A DNA stretch of 64,000 nucleotides, from contig JAHJNL010000055.1 of assembly GCA_018820855.1 (NCBI GenBank), positions 1 through 64,000 of the forward strand. The letters run 5' to 3'. This document shows, one piece after another, positions 6,033-29,276 of the stretch. Position 1 is the first letter of the stretch. Each line of letters starts with the position of its first letter. The notes under the pieces were generated by a model. The model worked only from the letters and a program-made list of their open reading frames with translations, made no database searches and was not told the origin of the DNA. The DNA is from Pseudomonadota bacterium (lineage in GTDB: Bacteria; Desulfobacterota; Desulfobulbia; Desulfobulbales; Desulfocapsaceae). The position numbers and the translations under genes are program-made.

Positions 6033-7997
6033 TCAATCTCCCCCCGCTGCTTCAGGACATGTTTCTCTCATCTCATTTTTCCGGACCAGGAAACAGAGAT
6101 CCTGACCCAGATTAAAGGCACGCAATAAGGGACCATAGCAGGCCAGATTCGGTTGAGTCACAGGACAGGTTTGATCAATCAGAAAAGGTAGCATGGGTGG
6201 AGGCGTATCAAGATGAGCACGCAGAAACAGAGAGACCTGGCCCAGCTCTTTTTTCAATCTGCAGGAAAGCGGCAGTGACTCTTGGACATAGAGCTCCTGC
6301 AAACCTGCATGATCAAGTGCACCCAGCCCGACCATCCGACCGCCAACTTCTTGAAACTGCTGATGGATCGGTTTGAGCAGTGAAGTTACGTTAGCCCAAC
6401 CTCCTGAGGCTTCCAGAGTAGTAAGAAAGGAGCCAAAGCAGGAACCATCCTCGCTGAGATTGATATCCTCCTCAGGATATAGGAGCATATGGTAGATGAA
6501 ATCAGTATGAAAATGCAGGTGTTCATACCAGAGATCTACCAGAAAAATATCACAGGCTAGTACCTGGGAGGCTGTCAACTGATCCGGCTGCAAACCTGAC
6601 AGATCAGTGGCCGGTGCAAACTGCTGCCCTTGAGCGACGATTACTGGGCATGGGCTGTTTTTTTCCAGATGACGCCGCACCGAAGCACTACGCAACAAGC
6701 CCTCTTTTTTACGAGAAGCTCCCAGTACCAACAACTCCGCATCCAGGTCCGTACTGAGCTTCCGCAGGACATCAACAACCTCTCCGCGAATCAGGCGAAT
6801 ACTCGGATCAATACTGCAGCGGCGAAAAAGCTGAACAGCATGCTCCAACCGGGCCATCAACTGCTCACCTTCAACGGCAATGCCATAACGCCTGAAATGG
6901 GAGTCGCTTTCTTCTTCAACGACATGCACCAGGGTCACATCAGCGAAACGGATAAGTGCCTGCTTTTTGGTCTCAGCCAGCACCTTGTCACCTTCTGAAG
7001 AGTCAATCAGGGCAGCGATGATCTGCGGCTTGGCGCCTGAAATCCTTATTCTCTTCCGTTCAGTACTGCTAAGCTGTACGGGTTTTCCCGGGAACAACCT
7101 CCGCCACCAAGGAGGCCGTCTGACAGTGCTGCCTGCACCTGTAACCGGAAGCTGCTGCCAGCATTTCAGGTCCTGCTGCAGCTCCTGCACACTTGCATAA
7201 CGATCTCCCGCATGACGAGCAAGAGCACGCAGGATGATAGTCTGGATCTGAGGTGGTATCTCGGGATTATAATAACGCGGCGGACTAGGATCGTGAGACA
7301 AACGACGACGGGCGATATGGATCTTGCTGGAACGCGGCCAGGGCAAGCGGCCGGTGAGCATCTCATAAAAAAGCATACCCATGCTGTAGATATCGCAGCG
7401 GGGATCAGCCCGTTCACCGAGCAGTTGTTCCGGTGCAATATACCAGGGAGTTCCCTGGGGATTTTTCAGGTCAAGGGCCAGGAGATCAGGAAGATGGCGA
7501 CACCCGGCCAGACCGAAATCAATAATTTTAATACCGGAACCGTTGAGACAGAGAATATTTTCAGGTTTCAGATCCAGATGAACAACGGATTGGCTATGCA
7601 GATAACTTATTGCGCTACAGAGTTGAGCCATCAGGTTCAGGGCAGCGTTCAGTTCAAGCCTGCGTCCCTTGCCGACTCTGGATCGCAGATCCTGGCCGAG
7701 TACATATTCCATGATGATGTACTGCCTGCTTCTTTCCCGGTGGATAAAGCGTATAATTCCAGGGTGATCAAGCAGTCGGCTGATCCGTTCTTCATTCTGA
7801 TAATGATATAACAGGATAGGATTGTTAAGAATATCCCCGCATGGTATCTTCAAAACGACCTGTTGTCCGGAAAGCAGGTCTTCAGCCAGGAAAAGGGTGG
7901 CCAAAGCCCCTTTGTGCAGCTCGGAGCGCAGGATAAAAATATCAATGATCTCGCCAACAGCTGGCTGTTGAAACGAACTATAAGACAAAGAAGACAT
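6033..7997 (-). CDS. Ser/Thr protein kinase fused to a universal stress protein domain
   Basis: 654 residues from ATG 7997 (an in-frame start at 8018 is also possible). The N-terminal Hanks-type kinase (about 20-285) looks intact: Lys50 in VVLK, HLDLKPEN at 140-147, DFG at 160-162 and a GTPWYIAPEQ activation segment. A universal stress protein domain follows (about 330-465), including LVLGASRK and CPVIVAQG. The last 180 or so residues have no family I recognise; they are rich in His and aromatic residues, for example WYEHLHFHTDF. No membrane segment is seen, so the kinase is cytoplasmic. It overlaps the preceding gene by 20 bp and is 1 bp from the phosphoesterase gene. It may phosphorylate, or be tuned by, the adjacent UspA protein. 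Confidence 0.87.
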   Translation of the reverse strand: MSSLSYSSFQQPAVGEIIDIFILRSELHKGALATLFLAEDLLSGQQVVLKIPCGDILNNPILLYHYQNEERISRLLDHPGIIRFIHRERSRQYIIMEYVLGQDLRSRVGKGRRLELNAALNLMAQLCSAISYLHSQSVVHLDLKPENILCLNGSGIKIIDFGLAGCRHLPDLLALDLKNPQGTPWYIAPEQLLGERADPRCDIYSMGMLFYEMLTGRLPWPRSSKIHIARRRLSHDPSPPRYYNPEIPPQIQTIILRALARHAGDRYASVQELQQDLKCWQQLPVTGAGSTVRRPPWWRRLFPGKPVQLSSTERKRIRISGAKPQIIAALIDSSEGDKVLAETKKQALIRFADVTLVHVVEEESDSHFRRYGIAVEGEQLMARLEHAVQLFRRCSIDPSIRLIRGEVVDVLRKLSTDLDAELLVLGASRKKEGLLRSASVRRHLEKNSPCPVIVAQGQQFAPATDLSGLQPDQLTASQVLACDIFLVDLWYEHLHFHTDFIYHMLLYPEEDINLSEDGSCFGSFLTTLEASGGWANVTSLLKPIHQQFQEVGGRMVGLGALDHAGLQELYVQESLPLSCRLKKELGQVSLFLRAHLDTPPPMLPFLIDQTCPVTQPNLACYGPLLRAFNLGQDLCFLVRKNEMRETCPEAAGGD

Positions 7998-8544
7998 AGC
8001 CAACCACAAGCAGGACAATGACCAGAAGCTCCACGGCAGTGATCTTGGCGATCATCAAACATATTTTTCGCTGAGACGGATCCATCTGCAGCATCATGCG
8101 GTTCATCAGGAAGCGAAAAAACAGCGTGACTGGTGTCCGTTTCACATAGATGCGAATATACTCCTTGATGGATCGAATCCACAGCAGGAGCGGATCACTG
8201 GCATCAATCACTTCATCCGCTGAAAAGATTCGAACCTTCAACCGGCAATCACTGCTTACAAAAGCAACTGTTACGTTGAATGGATTAGCCAGCTTGATAG
8301 ACAGAAGTTCATCTTCATTTCCGTTAAAAACAAAACTGCCTGATGCCGGAAATTCCTCTTCCGTCACATAATCTTTCAGAAGTGCGGTAAAAACACCGTC
8401 ATCCCGGTGAAAATCCGAGACAAACCAGTTAGGATGCAGCCGCAGGAGGCGGTCATTGGGAAAAAGTGTTTGCAGGTCAAAGTTGGCCGGTAACTGCAGG
8501 CCAAGGTCTACTTCCTGTGAGACGGACGGTGGCAGTACCGTCAT
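7978..8544 (-). CDS. Conserved-looking protein with C-terminal membrane anchor, function unknown
   Basis: 188 residues from ATG 8544, which overlaps the uspA stop as ATGA; a GTG at 8565 is an alternative start. The body is soluble and mixed alpha/beta. It ends in a strongly hydrophobic segment (roughly KITAVELLVIVLLVVGYVFF) immediately before the stop, so it should be tail-anchored in the inner membrane with the body in the cytoplasm. No known domain is recognised; a START/SRPBCC-like fold is only a guess. Translational coupling to uspA upstream and overlap with the kinase-Usp gene downstream imply a shared role in this signalling operon, perhaps holding a partner at the membrane. Confidence 0.7.
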   Translation of the reverse strand: MTVLPPSVSQEVDLGLQLPANFDLQTLFPNDRLLRLHPNWFVSDFHRDDGVFTALLKDYVTEEEFPASGSFVFNGNEDELLSIKLANPFNVTVAFVSSDCRLKVRIFSADEVIDASDPLLLWIRSIKEYIRIYVKRTPVTLFFRFLMNRMMLQMDPSQRKICLMIAKITAVELLVIVLLVVGYVFFVL

Positions 8545-9011
8545 GGGGCGATAAGGAGCGGGCACGGAAGCAGCGGATGCAGGGTGTCATTTTTTATTCT
8601 GGCCCGCAGCCCTTTTTCCCCATGAATGAAAAGCCCTTTGCTCTTTTGATAGGGACCGATGGCAATCAAGTCGCAGTGAAGCTTCTCGGCAACCCTTGTA
8701 ATTGTTTCTGCAATGGCACCGGTTCGCTGGAGAAAAACCGCCTGTGCTGCTGCCGGGTAAGTGTCTCTGATCCGCTGCCACTCTTCTGCTATTTCTTCAC
8801 TGACCTGCGCCTCAACATGGTCAAGAAAGGCAGTATGGGTCTTACTGGAGTTAAGCCAGTCATCACCGGTCATCATTCGCCAATCTTCATCAAGAATCGT
8901 GAGTACACTGACTTTGAGATTCGGATCAGCAGTTAACTGTTTAAAAACAAAAGCCTCGGCTTTCTGAGCTCCTTCCGTGCCATGGGTACAGAGTAAAAGA
9001 TGTTTAAACAT
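8541..9011 (-). CDS. Universal stress protein, UspA family
   Basis: 156 residues from ATG 9011, preceded by GTGAG; the longer frame to 9068 adds residues unlike the family. It begins MFKHLLLCTHGTEGAQKA, as usual for UspA, and has the nucleotide-site region LIAIGPYQKSKGLF and the C-terminal CPLLIAP. The canonical G-2x-G-9x-G(S/T) ATP motif is imperfect, so nucleotide binding is uncertain. It is first in the tight run uspA / anchored protein / kinase-Usp / phosphoesterase / sensor kinase. A small membrane protein gene lies 174 bp upstream. Confidence 0.83.
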   Translation of the reverse strand: MFKHLLLCTHGTEGAQKAEAFVFKQLTADPNLKVSVLTILDEDWRMMTGDDWLNSSKTHTAFLDHVEAQVSEEIAEEWQRIRDTYPAAAQAVFLQRTGAIAETITRVAEKLHCDLIAIGPYQKSKGLFIHGEKGLRARIKNDTLHPLLPCPLLIAP

Positions 9012-9185
9012 AAAAAGACTCACTTTTTGCGAAACCAGAAATACCATGGCCGATACATGACCGGCCATGGCAGAGTGGATTGTTTTCTTTAAGCTACTGT
9101 TGCATGTAATACATCGCCTGGCAGTGATCCGGCTGTGTTCGCTTGGGCGGCACAGCTGAGATGCTGGTAACCTTTTACTACTGTA

Positions 9186-9395
9186 TCACACCATCCACTT
9201 GGTGAACAGCAATACAAGAAAGGTGGTGATCAGACAAAAAACAAGCGCAGTTATATCTTCATTACGCTCACTGGAGAAAACAGACAAGGCACGTTCCTCG
9301 AGTTCTTCAGTGTTAGCACTTTCAGAAAGTTCCGAAGTTCCTTTGCCGGCTTCGCCGGTTTCAATAATTACTTTTTTTCCTTTATTATCACTCAT
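9186..9395 (-). CDS. Small single-span membrane protein, unknown
   Basis: 69 residues: an acidic, Glu/Ser-rich soluble N-terminus of about 48 residues, then one membrane segment at the C-terminus (ALVFCLITTFLVLLFTKWMV). The start has a usable ribosome site (AGCAGGGAGCTGATT before ATG). It lies between the YeiH-like transporter and the uspA operon on the same strand, so it could belong to either unit. No family is recognised. The tail-anchored layout resembles that of the larger unknown protein at 7978-8544. Confidence 0.62.
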   Translation of the reverse strand: MSDNKGKKVIIETGEAGKGTSELSESANTEELEERALSVFSSERNEDITALVFCLITTFLVLLFTKWMV

Positions 9396-9538
9396 AATCA
9401 GCTCCCTGCTTGGATATTAGTACCTTAGAAATTATTTTCATTATTTTGCAGCGAGAAAATAATTTCGTGAAGGCACTTTCACCCCTCAAGGGGGTATTGA
9501 AAAACGTCATGATCTGTAAAAGTTCTCGTTTCTCAAAA

Positions 9539-11167
9539 CTAGTTCAAAACAACATCTTTGACTAACCAAAGGACAACAAAGAAAGAAAGAGCCGCCTTGG
9601 TGATTCCGGCTATAACACCCATAACTATTGGCCATCCACCTGCCTGGGTAATTGCCTTTTTAGTAATCTGCATACCAAGGCCGATCAAGCCAAAGGCAAA
9701 AAACCAAATCATGAAATCAGTCAGGGTAACAATGGTCTTGGATTTTTTATGCACCTGCTTGATTGCATGCTTGATACCACTCTTGACATCACTGGACAGT
9801 GTTAATTCTTTAGCTTTAGCAGCTGCCAATACACCTTCCAGCTCAGCCATACGTGCACGACCGACCCTGTCGAAGACCTTCCCGTCATTCCGTTCAGCAT
9901 AGTTGCCGGCAATCTGCCGTTGCTCTATGAGATTTTCAACAGCAGCGAGCTGTTCTGGATTCAAGGCAGAAAACTCTCCCGCGGCCATGGCTTTCTTCAG
10001 AGTTTCCCACTCTTCACTGGTGACTTGAGTACGGTCATTATAGGATACATCGATATACTGACCCTTGTAATGGCTGGGCGGTGAAAACATACCAACAGAT
10101 GACATACCGAAGAGAAGTAAAAAACCGAGGATAAAAATCGGAAACTTATCAATGACAACAGACTTAAAGCTCAGCTTCTGTCCTGATTCCTTACCGAACC
10201 AGGTTGCCAGAACCAAGACAATAATCGGCAGAAAGAGAACGCGGGTAATATTAAAAATTTCTGCAACTTTCAGGGTTTTGATATCCACGGCATTAAAAGC
10301 AAGTGCTGCTGCCGCCACTTGAGCGGAATTGAGAATACCGGTTCCTGCCCAGGCCCCGAACTGTACAGGATTCATACCCGCCATATGACCAATGGTAGGA
10401 AAGACAAACATACAGATAATACCAAAGGAAAGAATTGTACCGATAGTGTAAGCCATTTCCGCACTCTTGGCCTTCACTACAGGTGCCACGGCAACTGTGG
10501 CTGAAACACCGCAGACGCCCATGCCTGCGGAAAGAACTCCGGTCATCGACTTGGGTTGTTTGAAAATATTTCCAAGCCACAGCACCAGAAAAACAGTACC
10601 GAGAACAAAAAAGCCGACCAACCAGACGGAATAGACACCGAGCTTTGCCAATTCAGCAAAAGAGTAGCGGGCACCAAGCATAATAACACCCATCTTCAGG
10701 ACAAAACGGGCACACTTGACTCCGGCTTCGGCAAATTTCGGAATTCCCCAGGTATTGGTCAACAGAACGCCGGCCAGGATTCCCAGAACAACGTAATTAA
10801 GGTTAAGAACCTTATAGACGTTAAATCCCAGTAGCGGCTGCAACGAGTCACTCATGATTTTGACCAGTGGCTCCAGATACCAGCGTATTGCCATGGCCAT
10901 AACCAGAATCAAAACGATTCCACCAAGGGGCTGCAGAAAGAATCGGTCAAGAATAGAATTGCCAGGCTCCTTGACTGAGTTAATCAGGGCACCGACAATG
11001 ACAATGCCTCCAACAATTAAGGTTAACGTCATCTGCAGATCCATAGCTTTATGGGTATGCAGATATTTCATCATGGGCAACAGGATTCCTGTTTTGACAA
11101 TGAGTCCATAAATGATCAAAAGTCCGCCCATGATCAGGACAGGCATATGGTCTTTTACTCGTGGCAT
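9539..11167 (-). CDS. YeiH/UPF0324-family putative anion (sulfate/sulfite) exporter
   Basis: The 542-residue multi-span membrane protein carries the family core GVLSAGMGVCGVSATVAVAPVVKAKS and the downstream GTGILNSAQVAAAALAF. It is longer than the usual 330-350 residues because of extra N-terminal spans and a soluble insert of about 110 residues (near 370-480: SPPSHYKGQY to VHKKSKT) before the last spans. Family members are annotated as sulfate or sulfite exporters on limited evidence. A small membrane protein gene lies just upstream on the same strand, and the divergent two-component system at 11754-15711 probably regulates it. In a sulfur-metabolising anaerobe, export of sulfite or a related anion is a reasonable inference. 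Confidence 0.82.
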   Translation of the reverse strand: MPRVKDHMPVLIMGGLLIIYGLIVKTGILLPMMKYLHTHKAMDLQMTLTLIVGGIVIVGALINSVKEPGNSILDRFFLQPLGGIVLILVMAMAIRWYLEPLVKIMSDSLQPLLGFNVYKVLNLNYVVLGILAGVLLTNTWGIPKFAEAGVKCARFVLKMGVIMLGARYSFAELAKLGVYSVWLVGFFVLGTVFLVLWLGNIFKQPKSMTGVLSAGMGVCGVSATVAVAPVVKAKSAEMAYTIGTILSFGIICMFVFPTIGHMAGMNPVQFGAWAGTGILNSAQVAAAALAFNAVDIKTLKVAEIFNITRVLFLPIIVLVLATWFGKESGQKLSFKSVVIDKFPIFILGFLLLFGMSSVGMFSPPSHYKGQYIDVSYNDRTQVTSEEWETLKKAMAAGEFSALNPEQLAAVENLIEQRQIAGNYAERNDGKVFDRVGRARMAELEGVLAAAKAKELTLSSDVKSGIKHAIKQVHKKSKTIVTLTDFMIWFFAFGLIGLGMQITKKAITQAGGWPIVMGVIAGITKAALSFFVVLWLVKDVVLN

Positions 11168-18641: not shown

Positions 18642-20021
18642 CTATCCCACATCAATTCCGCTTTTCTCATATTTCTTCAGTTTTCGCCAGAGGGAAACCC
18701 TGTCAATGCCTATGATTTTGGCAGCCTTTGTCTTATTGCCGTCAACGCTTTTAAGGACCGAGAGAATATATTCCCGTTCGTTTTCTTCAAGACTCTTGCT
18801 ATGTTGGTCTGCCTGGAAGTCTGGAATCTGATAATGCGGACTGTTGATAAGATCCGCGGGAAGATGGTGTGGTTGTATTTCTGAGCTGTCACATAGGGCC
18901 AGAGAGCGTTCAATGATATTCTCAAGCTCCCGCGCATTACCGGGGAAATCATATTCCTGCAGCCGCCGGATTGTTTCCGGAGAAATACTTTTGACATGTC
19001 CGATTGGTAGCGAATATTTGGCCAGGAAATAATTAACCAGCAGTGGAATATCGTCTTTTCTCTCCCGGAGCGGAGGGATATGAAGATTGATGACATTGAG
19101 CCGGTAATACAGATCCTGACGGAATGTTCCTTTTTTGACTTCTTCCTTGAGATCTCGGTTGGTTGCAGCCAGCAGACGAACATCTATCGGTATTTCTTTG
19201 GTTCCGCCTACCCTGATAATCTTTTTTTCCTGCAGTACCCGTAATAATTTCACCTGCATAGTGAGCGGCATTTCACCTATTTCGTCAAACAGGACAACCC
19301 CACCATTTGCCGATTCAAGAAGCCCATTACGCATGCTACCGGCATCAGTATAGGCGTCTTTTTCATGCCCGAACAGTTCATTGACCATCAGGTCTTCTGT
19401 CATTGCCCCGCAGTTGATAGGGAGAAAACGTTTATCAGCCCTGGGACTCAATTCATACATTGTCCTGGCTACCAATTCCTTACCGGTTCCGGTTTCACCG
19501 GTGATAAGGATATTGCAGTCCAGCTGGGCAAAATGAGCAATGGAATCCTTAAGCTCTAATATTGCCGGGTTCTGACCAATAAACTGAGTCGTCCCATGTT
19601 GTGCTTTGATCCGCTGCTTGAGACGGCTGATCTCCCGCAACAGCATTGTCTTTTCAGTTGCCCTCAGGACCAGAGTGTGAAGTTCCTTGAGTTTGATCGG
19701 TTTTGGGAGATAATAGAATGCCCCATGAGCCATGGCATCTACAGCAGAGTTTACCGTTGCATAACCGGTGACAATGATAACTTCAATATCAGGATGGAGT
19801 TCTTTGGCAGTTTTCATAACCTGAACGCCATCGACATCACCCATTTTCAAATCTGTTATTACCAGATCAAAATGGGATTTACTGAGCAGGCCTATTGCCT
19901 CGTTACCACTTGTCGCCGTTGTTACCTGAAATCCATGGTGCTCAAGGAAATGAGCAACATTCTGAACATTTATTACCTCATCATCAACCACCAGGATTGC
20001 AATAGTACTGGTATCAGTCAT
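18642..20021 (-). CDS. NtrC-type response regulator with variant GAFTGA loop (DAYTDA)
   Basis: 459 residues from ATG 20021, preceded by AGGTG; it overlaps the kinase gene by 8 bp. Receiver with Asp57 (VITDLKMGD), AAA+ domain with GETGTGKE Walker A (about 175-182), VLFDEIGEMP Walker B and R-finger region, then a Fis-type helix-turn-helix (NKTKAAKIIGIDRVSLWRKLKKY). The sigma54-contact loop, normally GAFTGA, reads DAYTDA (222-227); the central Thr is kept. Some Desulfobacterota regulators tolerate changes here, so loss of activity is not certain. It is the best candidate to bind the TGTTGCA-N3-TGCAACA sites near 21740-21921 and 28215. Confidence 0.92.
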   Translation of the reverse strand: MTDTSTIAILVVDDEVINVQNVAHFLEHHGFQVTTATSGNEAIGLLSKSHFDLVITDLKMGDVDGVQVMKTAKELHPDIEVIIVTGYATVNSAVDAMAHGAFYYLPKPIKLKELHTLVLRATEKTMLLREISRLKQRIKAQHGTTQFIGQNPAILELKDSIAHFAQLDCNILITGETGTGKELVARTMYELSPRADKRFLPINCGAMTEDLMVNELFGHEKDAYTDAGSMRNGLLESANGGVVLFDEIGEMPLTMQVKLLRVLQEKKIIRVGGTKEIPIDVRLLAATNRDLKEEVKKGTFRQDLYYRLNVINLHIPPLRERKDDIPLLVNYFLAKYSLPIGHVKSISPETIRRLQEYDFPGNARELENIIERSLALCDSSEIQPHHLPADLINSPHYQIPDFQADQHSKSLEENEREYILSVLKSVDGNKTKAAKIIGIDRVSLWRKLKKYEKSGIDVG

Positions 20022-21486
20022 TGTTACACCTGAAGGTTTCACTCTGGCCAAGAGAATATTCTTCTTCAAGACCCGTGTGGAGCGGCAGGGTGATGATAAC
20101 TCGAGTTCCCTTTCCTTTTTCTGACTCTACCCGAATTGAACCATTTTGTTTTTTTATAATGCCATAGACAACTGCCAGGCCCAGGCCGGTTCCATTTTCA
20201 GCATTTTTAGTTGTGAAAAACGGGTCAAATATTTTCGGCAGATGCTCTTTATCAATTCCGCTACCCGTATCAGCAACAATAATGATGGCATTCTTGTTGT
20301 TGGCATCCTTTTCTGCTCCGATTACGACCGTACCAGGCGGTTCGGGGATAGCCTGGATTGCATTAATTGTCAGATTCAGCAAGGCTTCGATCATTTTTTG
20401 CACATCTATGAAAAGGATTATATCCTCGGGAATATCAGTCTCCAAATTAATGCCGGACGGAATCTCGCTGGCGACAAGTTGTTGGACCCTCTCGATAACC
20501 TTTGTTAGTTGATAGGGTTGAAGAGAAAATGCATGCGCTCTGGAAAATTCCAGCAGGCCACGAACAATTTCTCCGGCACGATGGGTTTCCTGATTAATGG
20601 TTTCCAGCATCTTTGCGACTAACGGGTTCTGTTCAGCATCAATCTCGGCAAGAGCCAACTGGCAGGATGTTGAAATATTGTTGAGCGGATTATTGATCTG
20701 ATGAGCTGTTCCAGAGGCCAGGGTACCGATTGATGAAAGTTTCTTCACCTGAAAAAGCTGTTCCTGTTGTTCTGCCAGATCGGTAACCATTTTATTAAAG
20801 GCCCGAAATACACTGCGAATCTCACCTTTTTTTTCATCAACCCGCAGCTGGGTAAAGGTTCCGTTTGCAATATCTCTCGCAGCATTCTCAACCCTTTTTA
20901 AAGGCTTTATAATCGAAGTGTAAAGGATGGTGATGGTGAATATCGAGAGAAGAACAAGAAAGATAAACGTTTTTATAATTTGTCCTTTTAATTCAGTTAT
21001 AAAATCGGACATCTTTGCCTGTTCAAACACGACCAGATCTTCGCTGATATTAACAAGGTCCTGCCCCAGACTACGTACTTTTTCCCGTAAAGAACACTCC
21101 ACACCCTCATTTTCCGGGATACATTCTTCTTTAAACTCCCGAAAAGTCAACTTATAGGCCGCCAGTTTAAATGTAAGATTCTGCAAATGTGTCGGCTGCG
21201 GCATTATCTTTAAATCATCGATTATCTGGGGAACTGTTTTCTGGGCCTCATCAATATATTCAATGACTCTGTCAAAATCTTCTTCCTCATGACTAATGAT
21301 GAAGTTTTTTTCATAACGTCGTATTTCAAGACTGAGATTGCTGAGATTACCAGCATGCATCAATACGATGACATCATCGTTAAACCTGTCAAAATCTCTC
21401 AAAAAGGTTACTCCGACAATGATGTAAAAAAGCAGATGCAGGCAAAAACAGCCAGTCATCTTCTGACGCAGATTTAAAAAGAACAT
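20014..21486 (-). CDS. Membrane sensor histidine kinase (4-helix-type sensor, HAMP)
   Basis: 490 residues: membrane segment (about 12-29), a helical extracytoplasmic domain of about 140 residues, second membrane segment (about 170-190), HAMP linker, HisKA with His262 in [12 protein letters not shown], and HATPase with ADTGSGID and [11 protein letters not shown]. The sensor domain contains Cys122 and Cys131, which could form a disulfide. It precedes and overlaps its regulator. A sigma54-type promoter lies about 150 bp upstream on the same strand, which implies positive feedback or control by a related regulator. Confidence 0.92.
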
Positions 21487-21650: not shown

Positions 21651-21739
21651 TGAGAAATAAAATAAGATTGACGCAATCCTTCCCTGCCTACAAGATTATA
21701 ACGAGTTTTGTCTCTAAGATACCATATCCGAAGCTCCCT

Positions 21740-21807
21740 GCACATAGTGTTGCATATTAACAACATTGTTGCAATGTGCAATGTTGTTAATATGCAACAC
21801 TATGTGC
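21740..21807. repeat. Perfect 29-bp inverted repeat with 10-bp centre, probable enhancer site
   Basis: The two 29-bp arms (21740-21768 and 21779-21807) are exact reverse complements. The sequence is AT-rich with no terminal T run, so a transcription terminator is unlikely. Each arm contains TGTTGCA or TGCAACA, and the centre contains TGTTGCA-ATG-TGCAATG (21767-21783). It lies between two divergent sigma54-type promoters, as expected for a shared enhancer for a dimeric or oligomeric activator. Confidence 0.9.
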
Positions 21808-21904
21808 AAATATGATGGTTATCACACCATTATTTTATTCGCTCTCCCTGCCATTTCCCCTCTCAAAAGCCCCCTCCTCTTCTTCTGTTCCTCTTCTGGC
21901 AAAC

Positions 21905-21921
21905 TGTTACACCCTGCAACA
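21905..21921. promoter_or_regulatory. Enhancer-like site TGTTACA-CCC-TGCAACA
   Basis: A 7-3-7 inverted repeat with one mismatch, centred 106 bp upstream of the -24 GG of the promoter at 22018. The same pattern (TGTTGCA-N3-TGCAAyA) recurs at 21767-21783 and 28215-28231, in each case before a sigma54-type promoter. Confidence 0.6.
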
Positions 21922-22017: not shown

Positions 22018-22034
22018 CGGCATACAGGTTGCAA
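22018..22034 (+). promoter_or_regulatory. Sigma54 promoter for the 38-codon gene and SLC13 transporter
   Basis: CGGCATACAGGTTGCAA matches the -24/-12 pattern: GGCAT, 10 bp between GG and GC, then TTGCA. The expected start is near 22045, giving a leader of about 95 nt before the strong ribosome site of the gene at 22140. Confidence 0.65.
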
Positions 22035-22322: not shown

Positions 22323-24137
22323 ATGACTCTACCAATAATTTTAGTCATGGCCGTTCTGGTCTTGGCGATTCTACTCTTTATTTTTGAGTGGGTGCGTGTC
22401 GATGTCGTCGGTATCATTATGATGATCATGCTGCCCCTGCTCGGTCTGGTTACGCCCAAAGAAGCCATCAGTGGGCTTTCAAGTAATGCCGTTGTTTCAA
22501 TTATTGCCGTTATTATTATCGGTGCAGGCCTGGATAAGACAGGGGCCATGAATCACTTGGCCAGAATCATCCTCAGGTTTGCCGGCAAGAGCGAAAGCAG
22601 AATCATGGTGCTCATCTCCGGTACAGTGGCCTTTATATCCAGTTTCATGCAGAATATCGGCGCGGCAGCTCTTTTCATGCCGGTTTCCAAACGTATCTGT
22701 CGACAGACCAACATCCCGGTTTCCCGAATCCTCATGCCCATGGGATTTTGCGCAATTATCGGCGGCTGTATCACTTTGATCGGATCAAGCCCGCTCATTC
22801 TGCTCAATGATGTAATGAAAATTTCATCGCCGAATGTTGTACCATTTGGCCTTTTTTCCGTGACTCCGGTTGGGTTGTCCTTGATTGTTGCCGCCCTGCT
22901 CTATTTCGTTCTGCTGGGCCGTTTTATTCTTCCAGCCGGAGAAGGTGATGCGGCGGGGAGCGGACCAATGTCCCAGGAACTTGAGAGAACCTACCACGAC
23001 ATAGGTAATCTTTTTGAAATCCAGGTACCTGATTCCTTCGAAGGACCAAAAACTCTTGAGGAACTGGAAATCAGACCCATCTTTTTCACCACAATTCTCG
23101 CCATCGCCAGTAAGGGTGGAATACCTGTTTCTTCCCCTGACTATTCTGACACCATTGAAGGAGGCGATACAATTGCTGTAGAAGGCCCTCCGGACCTGGT
23201 AGCCAAAATGGCCAAATCCTTTGGCTGGATGATCAAAGACGATCTGGCGGTGTTTGCCGAAAGTCTCTCCCCTAACAATGCCGGCATCATGGAGACCATT
23301 ATCACTCCACGTTCTGAACTGGTTGGACATACCCTGCGTTCCTTTTCTTTCAGGAAAAAAAATGGTGTTACGCCACTGGCAGTGTTCCGCGACAACAAGA
23401 CCTTTGTCGGCGACATCTCAACAATGCCGCTGCGGGCTGGTGATGCCATGTTACTGCAAGGTCCATGGGAAAAATTTCATTACCTGAAAGAAAGAACTGA
23501 CCTTGTCTTTACCGAAGAGGTGCAGGGAGAAATTCTCCGAACAGACAAAGTCAAGTTTGCCGTGGGCAGTTTGATCCTGGCTCTGGTCATGACCATTGGT
23601 TTTCACGTCCAGCTTTCCATTGCCCTGCTGACAGGTGCTCTTGCCATGATTCTGACCAAGGTTCTCTCAATTGATGAGGCCTATGACTCAGTTGACTGGA
23701 TGACTGTTTTCCTCCTTGGCGGCCTTATTCCTCTGGGTATCGCTTTTGAAAAAACAGGAGCAGCCAAACTTATTGCAGAAACTATCATGGGTATGATGGG
23801 TGATGTTTCTCCGCTCATTCTCCTGACCGTTATCGGTATTCTCACCTCATTTTTCACTCTGGTTGCCTCTAATGTCGGAGCAACAGTACTCATGGTTCCT
23901 CTTGCCATGAATATGGCCGGTACTGCCGGGGCTGATCCCCGCATAGCTGCCCTGGTGGTTGCTGTTGCCTGCTCAAACACCTTCATCCTGCCCACCCATC
24001 AGGTCAATGCGCTGATCATGCGACCGGGCGGGTATAAGACAAAAGATTACTTCCGGGCAGGAGCAGGAATGACAGTCCTCTACCTCGTAGTAATGATGGC
24101 CTCCATAGCCTTGTTTTACGGTGTTACCGGCAGCTGA
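22323..24137 (+). CDS. SLC13/ArsB-type ion transporter with TrkA-C domains
   Basis: 604 residues. Hydrophobic spans at both ends surround a soluble middle part (about 215-390) that looks like two RCK/TrkA-C domains (GDTIAVEGPPDLVAKMAK and GDAMLLQGPWEKF). Transport-domain features include the re-entrant SSNAVVSIIAVIIIGAGLDKTGA and a second copy ending SNVGATVLMVPLAMNMA. The family moves sulfate, dicarboxylates or related anions, usually with Na+. Here the substrate is unknown, though sulfate is plausible. A terminator follows, and NhaD comes next on the same strand, so Na+ coupling could link them. Confidence 0.85.
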   Translation: MTLPIILVMAVLVLAILLFIFEWVRVDVVGIIMMIMLPLLGLVTPKEAISGLSSNAVVSIIAVIIIGAGLDKTGAMNHLARIILRFAGKSESRIMVLISGTVAFISSFMQNIGAAALFMPVSKRICRQTNIPVSRILMPMGFCAIIGGCITLIGSSPLILLNDVMKISSPNVVPFGLFSVTPVGLSLIVAALLYFVLLGRFILPAGEGDAAGSGPMSQELERTYHDIGNLFEIQVPDSFEGPKTLEELEIRPIFFTTILAIASKGGIPVSSPDYSDTIEGGDTIAVEGPPDLVAKMAKSFGWMIKDDLAVFAESLSPNNAGIMETIITPRSELVGHTLRSFSFRKKNGVTPLAVFRDNKTFVGDISTMPLRAGDAMLLQGPWEKFHYLKERTDLVFTEEVQGEILRTDKVKFAVGSLILALVMTIGFHVQLSIALLTGALAMILTKVLSIDEAYDSVDWMTVFLLGGLIPLGIAFEKTGAAKLIAETIMGMMGDVSPLILLTVIGILTSFFTLVASNVGATVLMVPLAMNMAGTAGADPRIAALVVAVACSNTFILPTHQVNALIMRPGGYKTKDYFRAGAGMTVLYLVVMMASIALFYGVTGS

Positions 24138-24244: not shown

Positions 24245-25666
24245 ATGAAAATCTTTCTATTGCTCTGCATCACTCTGCTTGGCAGTGCTGGTCAGGCATT
24301 GGCTGCATCTGGCCATGGTGGGGGGGAAACGGCAATGAGCCTGACCGCCACTTCGATGGGATATGCATCTCTGGCTATTTTTGTTCTCGCTTATCTACTT
24401 GTTATTTTTGAGGAGAAAACCCACCTGCGCAAGAGCAAACCGGTAATGTTGGCCGCCGGTGTTATCTGGATACTTCTCGCCATTACCTACCGCATAGCAG
24501 GTATCCCGCCTGAAGAAGCACATACTGCGATTATTCACAACATTACCGAGTATGCCGAGTTGCTCCTCTTCCTGCTTGTGGCTATGACCTATATCAATTC
24601 CATGGAAGAGCGTAATGTCTTTCAGGCCCTGCGTTCTTCGCTGGTTTCCAAAGGATTCTCTCTGCGCATTATTTTCTGGATCACCGGATTTCTCGCCTTT
24701 ATCATCTCACCGGTTGCGGACAACCTGACCACGGCACTGCTCATGGGAGCTGTTGTCATGGCCGTGGCAAAGGACAATAAAAAATTTGTTGCTCTGGCCT
24801 GTATCAATATCGTTGTTGGAGCCAATGCAGGCGGAGCCTTCTCACCCTTTGGCGATATCACCACTCTTATGGTCTGGCAGAAGGGACAGGCAACGTTTGG
24901 CCAATTCTTCTTTCTCTTTGCTCCAGCCTTGCTCAACTGGTTAATTCCAGCAGCCATCATGAGCATCTTTGTCTCCAAAGAGGTACCTAAGGCCCTGGAT
25001 GAAAAGGTCACGATGAAATTTGGTGCCAGACGAATCATGTTCCTTTTTCTCATGACAATCGTTACAGCAGTTTCCTTTCACAACTTTATTGAACTGCCCC
25101 CGGCAGCTGGCATGATGCTGGGGCTTTCCTACCTGGGCTTTTTCTCCTATTACATCAAAATAAGAGAAAAACGTGCTCTTGAGTATGATAAACCCTTAGG
25201 AATTTCCTTCAGTAATCAAGACGACCCCTTTGATATCTTCAAAAAAGTGGCCCGTGCTGAGTGGGATACCCTCCTCTTTTTCTACGGGGTTATTCTCTGC
25301 GTCGGCGGTCTCTCGCAATTTGGCTATCTTGCCCTGGTTTCACACCAGATGTACGATGGTCTGGGTGCCACCTATGCCAATGTCCTCGTTGGAATATTAT
25401 CAGCGATTGTTGACAATATTCCTGTCATGTTTGCTGTGTTGACCATGGATCCCACCATGCCTGTCGGCCAGTGGTTATTGGTTACCCTGACTGCGGGCGT
25501 AGGCGGCAGCCTGCTCTCCATTGGCTCCGCTGCCGGTGTAGCACTCATGGGAACCGCGCGGGGAACATATACCTTTGGTGCCCATTTAAAATGGATGCCC
25601 GTCGTTGCTCTTGGATATGCAGCAAGTATTTTCTGTCATTTATTTATTAACAGTCGTTTGTTCTAA
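24245..25666 (+). CDS. nhaD: NhaD-type sodium:proton antiporter
   Basis: 473 residues with an N-terminal signal-like segment (MKIFLLLCITLLGSAGQALA) and about 12 spans. NhaD hallmarks: SPVADNLTTALLMGAVV, GANAGGAFSPFGDITTLMVW and SAIVDNIPVMFAVLTM. The antiporter exports Na+ (or Li+) in exchange for H+, serving Na+ and alkaline pH tolerance. It follows the SLC13-type gene after a terminator and precedes the receiver-Lon gene, so it may have its own promoter in the 107-bp gap; none was recognised there. Confidence 0.92.
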   Translation: MKIFLLLCITLLGSAGQALAASGHGGGETAMSLTATSMGYASLAIFVLAYLLVIFEEKTHLRKSKPVMLAAGVIWILLAITYRIAGIPPEEAHTAIIHNITEYAELLLFLLVAMTYINSMEERNVFQALRSSLVSKGFSLRIIFWITGFLAFIISPVADNLTTALLMGAVVMAVAKDNKKFVALACINIVVGANAGGAFSPFGDITTLMVWQKGQATFGQFFFLFAPALLNWLIPAAIMSIFVSKEVPKALDEKVTMKFGARRIMFLFLMTIVTAVSFHNFIELPPAAGMMLGLSYLGFFSYYIKIREKRALEYDKPLGISFSNQDDPFDIFKKVARAEWDTLLFFYGVILCVGGLSQFGYLALVSHQMYDGLGATYANVLVGILSAIVDNIPVMFAVLTMDPTMPVGQWLLVTLTAGVGGSLLSIGSAAGVALMGTARGTYTFGAHLKWMPVVALGYAASIFCHLFINSRLF

Positions 25667-25920: not shown

Positions 25921-27948
25921 ATGAGTTTTTTTTCAAAAAAAGAACCTGAAGCGAAAACACCTGGATCTGGAGGAGCAATCAGTTCCGGACAGATCGGTGA
26001 TCTAAAAAACAGGGTGGCCGGTACTGACCTGCCACCCTACGTTGCTCACCAAGTAACAACCGAATTGAACCGTCTTGAAAAAACCGATCCAATTACCGCT
26101 GAATTCTCCATCGGCGTAAACTATATCGAATTGCTTCTCTCGTTGCCCTGGTTCCAGGAAACGAAAGATAAACTTGATCTCAAGCGAGCTGAATCCATCA
26201 TGGCCTCTCACCATTTCGGGCTTGAGGGAGTCAAAACGCGGATACTGGAATACCTTGCAGCCAAGACCCTGAAGAATCAGCAAAAATCAAGGATACTGAT
26301 TGTTGATGATGAAGAAATTGCCCGCAATAATCTTCAGCACTACTTCAAGAATATTGGCCATACCGTGCAGGTGGCTGCTAACGGAATTGATGCTCTGCAA
26401 CAGGTTGAAACAAGTGATCTTTTTGATGTGATGATCACCGACCTGAAAATGGATAAGATGGATGGCCTCACCCTTATTGAAAAAATCAGTAAAGTATCTC
26501 CGGAGACCAATGTGATCATGGTTACCGGCTATGCAACAGTGGCAACTGCAGTAGATGCGATGCGCAAAGGTGCAACCCATTATTTATCAAAACCGGTACA
26601 GCTTGATGAACTGAGAGATACGGTGGAAGAGATCCTGCAAAGACAGAAGAAACTGCAGATCAGTCAGGGCCCCGTCCTCTGCTTTTCCGGCCCCCCCGGT
26701 ACAGGCAAAACCTCCATAGGACAGTCTGTGGCCACCTCCCTTGGCCGGGAGTTTATTCGTCTGTCCATGGCAGGTCTCCGTGATGAAGCTGAAATCCGTG
26801 GCCACCGCCGCACCTATGTCGGTGCCATGCCAGGCCGCATTATTAATGAAATTAAACGGGCCGGAGTGACTAATCCCTGTTTCATGCTCGATGAAATTGA
26901 CAAGATCGGCCAGGATTTTCGTGGAGACCCTGCTTCCGTTCTCCTTGAGGTTCTTGATCCCGAGCAGAACGGGAACTTTATGGATCACTATCTTGATATT
27001 CCCTTTGATCTATCCGGTGTCCTGTTCATTGCTACGGCAAATGACATAACAAAACTGCCTGGCCCTCTGCTGGACAGACTGGAAGTCATTGAGTTTTCTA
27101 GCTATTCATCCCAGGAAAAACAGGTTATTGCCAGAAAATATCTTCTGCCCAAACAGTTATCCATCAACGGCTTAAGCGATATAAATCCGCAGATCACCGA
27201 CAGTGCCCTCGATAAACTTATCGTGGAATACACCAGAGAATCCGGCGTACGGGGGCTCAATCGGACAATCGGGACCATCTGTCGCAAACTGGCCCTGCAG
27301 GTCCTGCAAAACGATTCAAAAGAATCTTTGCCGGTTATAGACAAAGATGCCATTGCGCCACTGCTCGGACCGAGAAAATACCGCCAGGAAGCTGCTGAAG
27401 GCGAGGACAAGGTTGGTGTCGTAACCAGCCTGGTCTGGACCCAATTTGGTGGTGAGATTATGTTTATCGAGGCCTTGGCCATGCGAGGCAGCACCCATCT
27501 CATCCTTACCGGTTCACTGGGCGAAGTATTGCGTGAATCGGCGCAGACCGCTTTGAGTTATATCAGAAGCAATGCCGAACAACTTGGTATCGCTCCAGAC
27601 TTCTACGATCATTCCGATATCCATATCCATCTACCTGCAGGCGCAGTTTCAAAAGACGGCCCCTCTGCCGGTGTTGCCATAGCCATTGCCTTGATCTCCC
27701 TGCTCACCGGCCGCCCGGTCCATCGCAACGTATCGATTACCGGAGAGATGACACTGACCGGCCAGGTGCTGCCTGTCGGAGGAATCAGGGAAAAACTCCT
27801 GGCAGGCGTTCGAACCGGTTGCGTGAAGATCGTCCTGCCTGCAAAAAATAAGGAAGATGTGGCCTCATTACATGACGATGTTACAGATCATCTTGAACTG
27901 GTATATGTCGATATGCTCGATGAGGCAATCCCACACCTGCTTACCTGA
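25921..27948 (+). CDS. Lon-type ATP-dependent protease with internal response-regulator receiver domain
   Basis: 675 residues from ATG 25921; the frame is open to 25843, but that part overlaps the leader hairpin. The usual N-terminal Lon substrate domain (about 190 residues) is absent. Residues 40-115 match the Lon helical linker (LLLSLPW, HFGLEGVKTRILEYLA). A complete receiver domain follows (about 122-242: DD129-130, Asp174, Thr202, Lys224), placed exactly before the AAA+ domain (GPPGTGKT 257-264, FMLDEIDKIG). The protease domain is intact, with Ser582 in DGPSAG and Lys625 in GIREKLLAG, 43 residues apart as in E. coli Lon. Phosphorylation could gate proteolysis; this is inferred. It lies in the sigma54/two-component cluster. 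Confidence 0.93.
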   Translation: MSFFSKKEPEAKTPGSGGAISSGQIGDLKNRVAGTDLPPYVAHQVTTELNRLEKTDPITAEFSIGVNYIELLLSLPWFQETKDKLDLKRAESIMASHHFGLEGVKTRILEYLAAKTLKNQQKSRILIVDDEEIARNNLQHYFKNIGHTVQVAANGIDALQQVETSDLFDVMITDLKMDKMDGLTLIEKISKVSPETNVIMVTGYATVATAVDAMRKGATHYLSKPVQLDELRDTVEEILQRQKKLQISQGPVLCFSGPPGTGKTSIGQSVATSLGREFIRLSMAGLRDEAEIRGHRRTYVGAMPGRIINEIKRAGVTNPCFMLDEIDKIGQDFRGDPASVLLEVLDPEQNGNFMDHYLDIPFDLSGVLFIATANDITKLPGPLLDRLEVIEFSSYSSQEKQVIARKYLLPKQLSINGLSDINPQITDSALDKLIVEYTRESGVRGLNRTIGTICRKLALQVLQNDSKESLPVIDKDAIAPLLGPRKYRQEAAEGEDKVGVVTSLVWTQFGGEIMFIEALAMRGSTHLILTGSLGEVLRESAQTALSYIRSNAEQLGIAPDFYDHSDIHIHLPAGAVSKDGPSAGVAIAIALISLLTGRPVHRNVSITGEMTLTGQVLPVGGIREKLLAGVRTGCVKIVLPAKNKEDVASLHDDVTDHLELVYVDMLDEAIPHLLT

Positions 27949-28056: not shown

Positions 28057-28091
28057 TGTTGCATTCTGTTACGCAGTTTCATCCTGCAACA
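28057..28091. promoter_or_regulatory. Distal half-sites of the TGTTGCA motif
   Basis: TGTTGCA at 28057-28063 and TGCAACA at 28085-28091 are separated by 21 bp, upstream of the better site at 28215-28231. They may give extra binding for the same activator, but the spacing does not match the 3-bp gap of the other sites. Confidence 0.35.
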
Positions 28092-28214: not shown

Positions 28215-28231
28215 TGTTGCAAGCTGCAATA
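28215..28231. promoter_or_regulatory. Enhancer-like site TGTTGCA-AGC-TGCAATA
   Basis: The same 7-3-7 pattern as at 21905-21921 and 21767-21783, centred 117 bp upstream of the -24 GG of the uspA promoter at 28338. This suggests that one regulator acts on all of these promoters. Confidence 0.6.
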
Positions 28232-28337: not shown

Positions 28338-28354
28338 TTGGCACGACATGTGCA
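28338..28354 (+). promoter_or_regulatory. Sigma54 promoter for uspA
   Basis: TTGGCACGACATGTGCA is a near-perfect -24/-12 element: TTGGCACG, 4 bp, then GTGCA, with 10 bp between GG and GC. The start codon is at 28420, leaving a leader of about 55 nt with the ribosome site GAGAGGAGA. Confidence 0.85.
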
Positions 28355-28419: not shown

Positions 28420-28974
28420 ATGGGCTTCACTGACTGGTTCACATTAGGAATGAAAAAAAACAAAGAAGTTAATGTAAAAAAAATCAAAGAAAAATCTATC
28501 GATATGGGTGCAATGGCAGCCGGTAGTCCATCAAACGCTGCTGGAGCCATTGCCAGAGTGATGGACCAGAGAAATACGCCAACAAAGGTTCTTATGATCC
28601 AAGACGGAGAATATCTTCAACAAGTCACTGATTACGCTATGAAAATGGCACAGCGACTTGACTGTGAAATCATCGCCCTTGATATTACGGACAGACCACT
28701 TCAATTTACAGGTGACAGAAGAGCAAGAGAAAGTGACCGCTTCATTGATATGGCCAGGACAAATGCCGAAAAATTTACCAGCCAGGCCAAGGCGTGCGGA
28801 ATCAAAGTCGAACATATTATGGATATCGGTGACTCAGAAGAGATCATTGCTCGTGTCAGTGCTGCAGATGCAGGTATTCGCTACGTATTAAGCAAACCTG
28901 ACGAAGAAGCAATCAGAACCGATCAGGAACGACCCCATGTTCCGGTCTTTGATCTCCACTGTTCACGCTTATAA
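28420..28974 (+). CDS. Universal stress protein-like, sigma54-controlled
   Basis: 184 residues. The first 50 or so are a Lys- and Ala-rich extension (KKNKEVNVKKIKEKS, then AAGSPSNAAGAIARVM). A UspA-like alpha/beta domain follows (KVLMIQDGEYLQQVTDYAMKMAQRLDCEIIALDIT to YVLSKPDEE). The classical ATP-binding glycine motif is not evident, so it is probably a non-nucleotide-binding member. It has a near-consensus sigma54 promoter and an enhancer-like site, and is followed 26 bp later by a small membrane protein with its own good ribosome site. Role in the stress response is inferred from family and context. Confidence 0.8.
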   Translation: MGFTDWFTLGMKKNKEVNVKKIKEKSIDMGAMAAGSPSNAAGAIARVMDQRNTPTKVLMIQDGEYLQQVTDYAMKMAQRLDCEIIALDITDRPLQFTGDRRARESDRFIDMARTNAEKFTSQAKACGIKVEHIMDIGDSEEIIARVSAADAGIRYVLSKPDEEAIRTDQERPHVPVFDLHCSRL

Positions 28975-29000
28975 TTTCCAATCACAAAGGAGTGACCCTC

Positions 29001-29276
29001 ATGGAACCTTTAACAATGTTTGCAGCAACCGTTGGATTTATAGGATTCTTCCACTTATTATCCACAGCCGTTGAACACTTTGGAAAAAGAAGAAACAACA
29101 GCCACGATCTAAATACAAAGAGAGAGGAATGGTACTGCTTCTTTCAACCATCCGACCTTCTTGGAGAAGACCTGGGAGCAGGTGGGAATATGGGTCAGCA
29201 TCCGTCCATCACCGATGCCGAGCTGCTTAAGCAGAGGCGGCAGCAGCAGGCAAACCGCCCTCGCCTTCAAGCCTGA
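29001..29276 (+). CDS. Small single-span membrane protein cotranscribed with uspA
   Basis: 91 residues from ATG 29001 (ribosome site AAAGGAGTG). One hydrophobic segment near the N-terminus (LTMFAATVGFIGFFHLLSTAV) is followed by a polar cytoplasmic or periplasmic tail with a Gly-rich stretch and a Gln/Arg-rich end. No family is recognised. It is 26 bp after the uspA-like gene and before a terminator, so the two form a bicistronic unit; it could be a membrane partner for the Usp protein. Confidence 0.7.
   Translation: MEPLTMFAATVGFIGFFHLLSTAVEHFGKRRNNSHDLNTKREEWYCFFQPSDLLGEDLGAGGNMGQHPSITDAELLKQRRQQQANRPRLQA

Follow-up and report, generated by a model that had tools for sequence, protein, structure and literature searches.

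The window analyzed here is a 64,000-nucleotide stretch of contig JAHJNL010000055.1 (assembly GCA_018820855.1) from a sulfur-cycling bacterium placed by GTDB in the Desulfocapsaceae. It contains a gene for a Lon protease that carries a response-regulator receiver within the same chain, preceded by two transporter genes, the second of which we take to encode an NhaD-like protein, and followed by a gene for a Usp-like protein and one for a small conserved protein. Genes for a sensor histidine kinase and a sigma54-dependent response regulator lie on the other side of the transporters (Table 1). Between the kinase and transporter genes, positions 21739–21808 form an inverted repeat with perfect 30-nt arms around a 10-nt spacer; the arms contain TGTTGCA-type half sites, and the repeat may be either a hairpin or a set of regulator sites. 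Three more, ordinary Lon proteases of ~800 aa are encoded elsewhere in this genome (loci L001–L003; G000 C48, C52, and C104).

Table 1. Genes and sites around the Lon–receiver fusion gene, in window positions; residue numbers refer to the fusion protein.
Feature	Position	Strand	Remarks
Partner response regulator	18642–20069	−	Receiver, sigma54-activating AAA+, Fis-type HTH
Partner sensor histidine kinase	20014–21486	−	Weak HBM-like sensor match, HAMP, HisKA, HATPase_c
Palindrome TGTTACACCCTGCAACA	21905–21921		Putative partner-regulator site upstream of transporter
Sigma54-type promoter-like site CGGCATACAGGTTGCA	22018–22033	+	Upstream of transporter
CitMHS/SLC13-type anion or carboxylate transporter	22323–24137	+	Probable regulon member
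Second CitMHS-superfamily transporter	24245–25666	+	Upstream of Lon gene, same strand
Lon–receiver fusion protease gene	25921–27948	+	675 aa; ORF, Pfam, AF2 model
Parts of the fusion protein			3-helix bundle and alpha0, ~19–120; receiver, 124–247; AAA+ alpha/beta, 252–392; lid, 416–468; Ser582/Lys625 protease, 473–674
Receiver domain	26293–26625	+	Residues 125–235, phospho-acceptor Asp174; between AAA+ alpha0 and beta1
Two adjacent putative binding palindromes (28057–28073, 28075–28091)	28057–28091		Upstream of Usp-like gene
Third putative binding palindrome TGTTGCAAGCTGCAATA	28215–28231
Sigma54 −24/−12 promoter-like site TGGCACGACATGTGCA	28339–28354	+	65 bp upstream of Usp-like gene
Usp-like protein	28420–28974	+	Probable regulon member
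Small conserved protein	28992–29276	+	After Usp-like gene

The reading frame of the fusion has no internal stops, and its start Met is kept in all 29 aligned homologues. Pfam assigns, in order, a receiver (residues 125–235, 98.4 bits), an AAA domain (253–392), a Lon lid (416–468), and Lon_C (473–674, 258 bits). No Pfam match to the Lon N-terminal substrate-binding domain (PF02190) occurs in the 675 residues, and the chain starts at the three-helix bundle, in agreement with an earlier note made from the sequence alone, which had called this domain missing. Because it is absent, the protein is classed from its sequence as a Lon derivative rather than as a standard LonA. The receiver has the acidic pair, phospho-Asp, Thr, and Lys that define response regulators, and the remainder has the AAA+ module of LonA (S16), with Walker A and B motifs, sensors, and an Arg finger, together with a Lon_C domain bearing a Ser-Lys dyad. 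D129, D130, D174, T202, Y221, K224, S582, and K625 are each present in 52 of 52 homologues, which upholds two further claims of that note, a complete receiver and a catalytic dyad with a spacing of 43 residues. Walker A (K263/T264), Walker B (D324/E325), sensor 1 (N374), the Arg finger (R386), and sensor 2 (R444) are invariant in the same homologues or have one exception. A degenerate receiver or a dead protease can be ruled out insofar as invariant key residues predict function.

The receiver had been described as sitting between the Lon helical linker and Walker A, before the AAA+ domain. It does lie ahead of Walker A, but the insertion is within the AAA+ module: in an AF2 model (pLDDT 81.6, pTM 0.71), it follows alpha0 (102–120) and precedes beta1 (252–256) of the AAA+ fold. 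A phmmer comparison with Bacillus subtilis Lon (3m6a) matched query residues 22–118 to chain residues 7–103 and query residues 243–674 to chain residues 101–530, so the receiver is a pure insertion that replaced no Lon residues. The distance from the HxGL motif to Walker A is 158–159 residues in the fusions versus 32 in five ordinary Lon proteins picked up by the same kind of pattern, giving an insert of 126–127 residues. Both junctions are fixed, with 30 residues from the alpha0 motif to VDDE in 51 of 52 homologues and 36 residues from YLxKP to Walker A in all 52, unlike the N-terminal tail, whose length varies. The Lon core of the fusion is predicted to be normal, the model aligning with Yersinia pestis Lon (6v11_C) over 500 of 503 residues (Z 33, 2.3 Å). 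The receiver's alpha5 is modeled as a long helix (228–247) that nearly reaches beta1 (252), and as the connections are fixed and short on both sides, this geometry suggests mechanical coupling of the receiver to the AAA+ motor.

An assembly join or frameshift between receiver and AAA+ part is ruled out as the source of this architecture, because the identical junction recurs at fixed length in dozens of independent genomes. Two of the loci collected carry a damaged fusion gene, either a pseudogene or an assembly error: L033 (~7542–9563) has an in-frame TAG stop, and in L035 (~9001–11021) the frame is broken ahead of the AAA+ part.

A search for the same architecture and its range, as proposed in the earlier note, detected the fusion in 51 of the 394 Desulfobacterota genomes that were sampled, and the scores show a gap from 974 down to 688 bits. 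None of 398 sampled Pseudomonadota genomes gave a match at E 1e-90, which is no evidence of absence, given that this cut-off is strict, that no positive control gave a hit, and that Rajeev 2011 (PMC3333781) names further genera, Thioalkalivibrio, Dechloromonas, and Thermodesulfovibrio. The architecture is already known, and the phospho-switch hypothesis is a published one. In Rajeev 2011, DVU3303 of Desulfovibrio vulgaris is listed as a "lon protease" response regulator in the three-component system DVU3303–3305, with activation by phosphorylation suggested for it in 2011; the DAP-chip targets of DVU3305 include Usp-domain and transporter genes, and DVU3305 regulates its own operon. DVU3303–3305 display co-fitness >0.9 and are detrimental in chlorate (Trotter 2023, PMC10102598). 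Our literature search on the Lon response regulator found nothing beyond three papers on D. vulgaris, and neither biochemistry on any Lon–receiver fusion nor a test of phospho-switching was among its results. To this, the present analysis adds where exactly the receiver is inserted, that both junctions are fixed, how widely the fusion occurs, that the Lon and partner receivers are paralogues, and which DNA sites are conserved in the Desulfocapsa group.

The histidine kinase at 20014–21486 had been put forward as the nearest candidate to act on the fusion, a choice that the genomic linkage favors. Homologues of this kinase and of the sigma54 regulator (18642–20069) both lie within ~9 kb of the fusion gene at 23 of 26 well-flanked loci. 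The two are thus conserved partners, and the accompanying statement that no dedicated kinase is adjacent was misleading; the regulator went unmentioned in that note. At four loci without a complete pair nearby, the genome's best regulator homologue is on the same contig as the fusion, 8–29 kb away. Of 56 relatives, 25 have the fusion, and 23 of these also encode a regulator homologue; among the 31 that lack the fusion, 6 do (Fisher p 3e-8, with no correction for phylogeny). Specificity of the kinase for the Lon receiver would fit this pattern, and an orphan protein without a kinase is ruled out by the conserved linkage. A few genomes (G005, G050, and G053) lack the Lon fusion but keep a regulator homologue, some of them together with the transporter, so the protease is an added, dispensable arm of the system. 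The HBM match of the kinase is borderline in the window (30.6 bits, cut-off 29.8) and is below threshold or not seen in its relatives. In G005 (C44:12343–16485), a diverged regulator (57%) adjoins a transporter (58%), possibly a protease-less version of the system.

The partner regulator may also have supplied the inserted domain. The window's genome gave 149 receiver matches, and of these the receiver of the partner regulator is the Lon receiver's best paralogue (86.7 bits, 45%), although its lead over the next (85.0) is <2 bits; in Solidesulfovibrio aerotolerans it is well ahead (106 bits and 52% versus 75). In a tree of 72 receivers, the Lon receivers are monophyletic (98/90) and group with the partner receivers (94/73), a grouping that is suggestive and not decisive. 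As best paralogue and neighbor in the tree, the partner's receiver fits a single fusion event involving a copy of it, and a single kinase would then be expected to act on the two receivers. The same close paralogy could serve a receiver that is a mere docking or phosphate-sink domain, tethering Lon to the kinase or competing for phosphoryl groups while proteolysis stays unregulated. We consider this highly improbable, because a fixed-length insertion inside the AAA+ core would be a costly place for a tether and the switch residues T202 and Y221 are invariant.

The flanking genes and their upstream sites indicate what the regulator may control. The Usp-like protein has a weak Usp match (17.7 bits, cut-off 24) and the 94-aa protein encoded after it has no Pfam match; across the window's clade, the two genes are conserved as a pair beside the Lon fusion. 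The palindrome TGTTGCA-N3-TGCAACA and the sigma54 −24/−12 site are each present upstream of the Usp-like gene at 27 of 27 loci; upstream of the transporter the counts are 16 of 19 and 17 of 19, respectively, and dinucleotide shuffles yield ~1 or fewer occurrences. The palindrome pattern was first derived from the window, which is therefore no independent evidence for it; the other loci do count as such, though many are close relatives. The position of the palindrome and the D. vulgaris targets point to it as the binding site of the partner regulator, with the nearby transporter and Usp-like genes as its probable regulon.

Directly upstream of the Lon gene, the palindrome occurs at 23 of 26 loci in a distant clade versus 1 of 29 in the window's clade, where the gene is probably transcribed by read-through from the transporters. 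Either arrangement, palindromes in front of the Lon gene or a place behind transporter genes that are probably sigma54-controlled, would suit a feedback protease, with the phosphorylated fusion shutting down the response by degrading the partner regulator or the kinase, much like the RpoS–RssB–ClpXP loop. Proteolytic feedback is known for RssB (PMC10957080), and the autoregulation of DVU3305 (PMC3333781) is in keeping with it. We nevertheless judge simple negative feedback unlikely, because in D. vulgaris losses of Lon, kinase, and regulator have the same fitness direction at that high co-fitness (PMC10102598), whereas loss of a negative regulator should go the opposite way unless the insertions are polar; the co-fitness may indeed partly reflect polar effects within one operon.

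Phosphorylation-switched proteolysis is the reading that best accommodates the anatomy predicted from sequence, with its intact receiver, ATPase, and protease and its fixed-length junctions. Probably the two-component system branches behind a shared kinase and the Lon fusion is its proteolytic arm, gated through phosphorylation of Asp174; one kinase would most likely feed both a transcriptional and a proteolytic output. The membrane histidine kinase would phosphorylate two response regulators with related receivers, the sigma54 activator and the Lon fusion. The activator would turn on the nearby transporter and Usp-like genes through the palindromes and sigma54 promoters, while phosphorylation of Asp174 would change the alpha4-beta5-alpha5 face of the Lon receiver. 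Inserted after alpha0 and before beta1 with junctions of fixed length, the receiver would pass this change on as altered ring assembly or ATPase cycling and thereby gate degradation. As the substrate-binding N-domain is absent, substrate choice would fall to the receiver, the remaining helices, or the pore.

The sign of this gating is not predicted by anatomy. Phosphorylation could stop proteolysis that the unphosphorylated receiver permits, stabilizing stress-response proteins, and ordinary Lon is inactivated by Ser654 phosphorylation in Xanthomonas; the published guess for DVU3303 (PMC3333781) is activation, and we regard the inhibitory version as distinctly improbable and weakly favor activation. 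It could well be, although we stop short of calling it probable, that the receiver, placed between alpha0 and beta1, works as a phospho-clutch built into the protease, through which one kinase sets transcription and protein destruction together. If phospho-gating holds, the fusion would represent a covalently phospho-gated AAA+ protease whose coupling geometry is undescribed in the literature we found. A receiver inside an AAA+ motor would offer a compact test system for how phosphorylation drives or stops an unfoldase, and the family is common enough, and its kinase, regulator, DNA site, and probable regulon are now well enough defined, for the 2011 suggestion to be directly testable.

Compared with canonical LonA (Escherichia coli, 6u5z; B. 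subtilis, 3m6a), the fusion has an AAA+ module, lid, and Ser-Lys protease that are ~46% identical, the same dyad spacing, and the three-helix bundle; it differs in lacking the N-terminal substrate domain and in the 126–127-residue receiver between alpha0 and beta1. Sigma54 activators of the NtrC/NtrC1 type, to which the partner regulator with the closest relative of the Lon receiver belongs, likewise link a receiver through alpha5 to an AAA+ ring, but they carry the receiver ahead of the AAA+ domain and have transcription as their output, whereas the fusion carries it inside the AAA+ module and has proteolysis as its output. Most known receivers with control over proteases are separate adaptors, such as the CpdR protein that places the AAA+ protease ClpXP under receiver-dependent control. 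RssB–ClpXP (PMC10957080) resembles the fusion in the same respect, with the receiver on a separate adaptor rather than in the protease chain. The nearest known counterpart is DVU3303, which by its published description combines a receiver and a Lon protease in one chain, as confirmed here for the fusion, and shares with it a genomic link to one histidine kinase and one sigma54 regulator as well as Usp-domain and transporter genes in the regulon; the match rests on description, gene content, and Desulfovibrionaceae homologues (~52–54% identical). In the window, by comparison, two transporter genes separate the Lon gene from the kinase/regulator pair.
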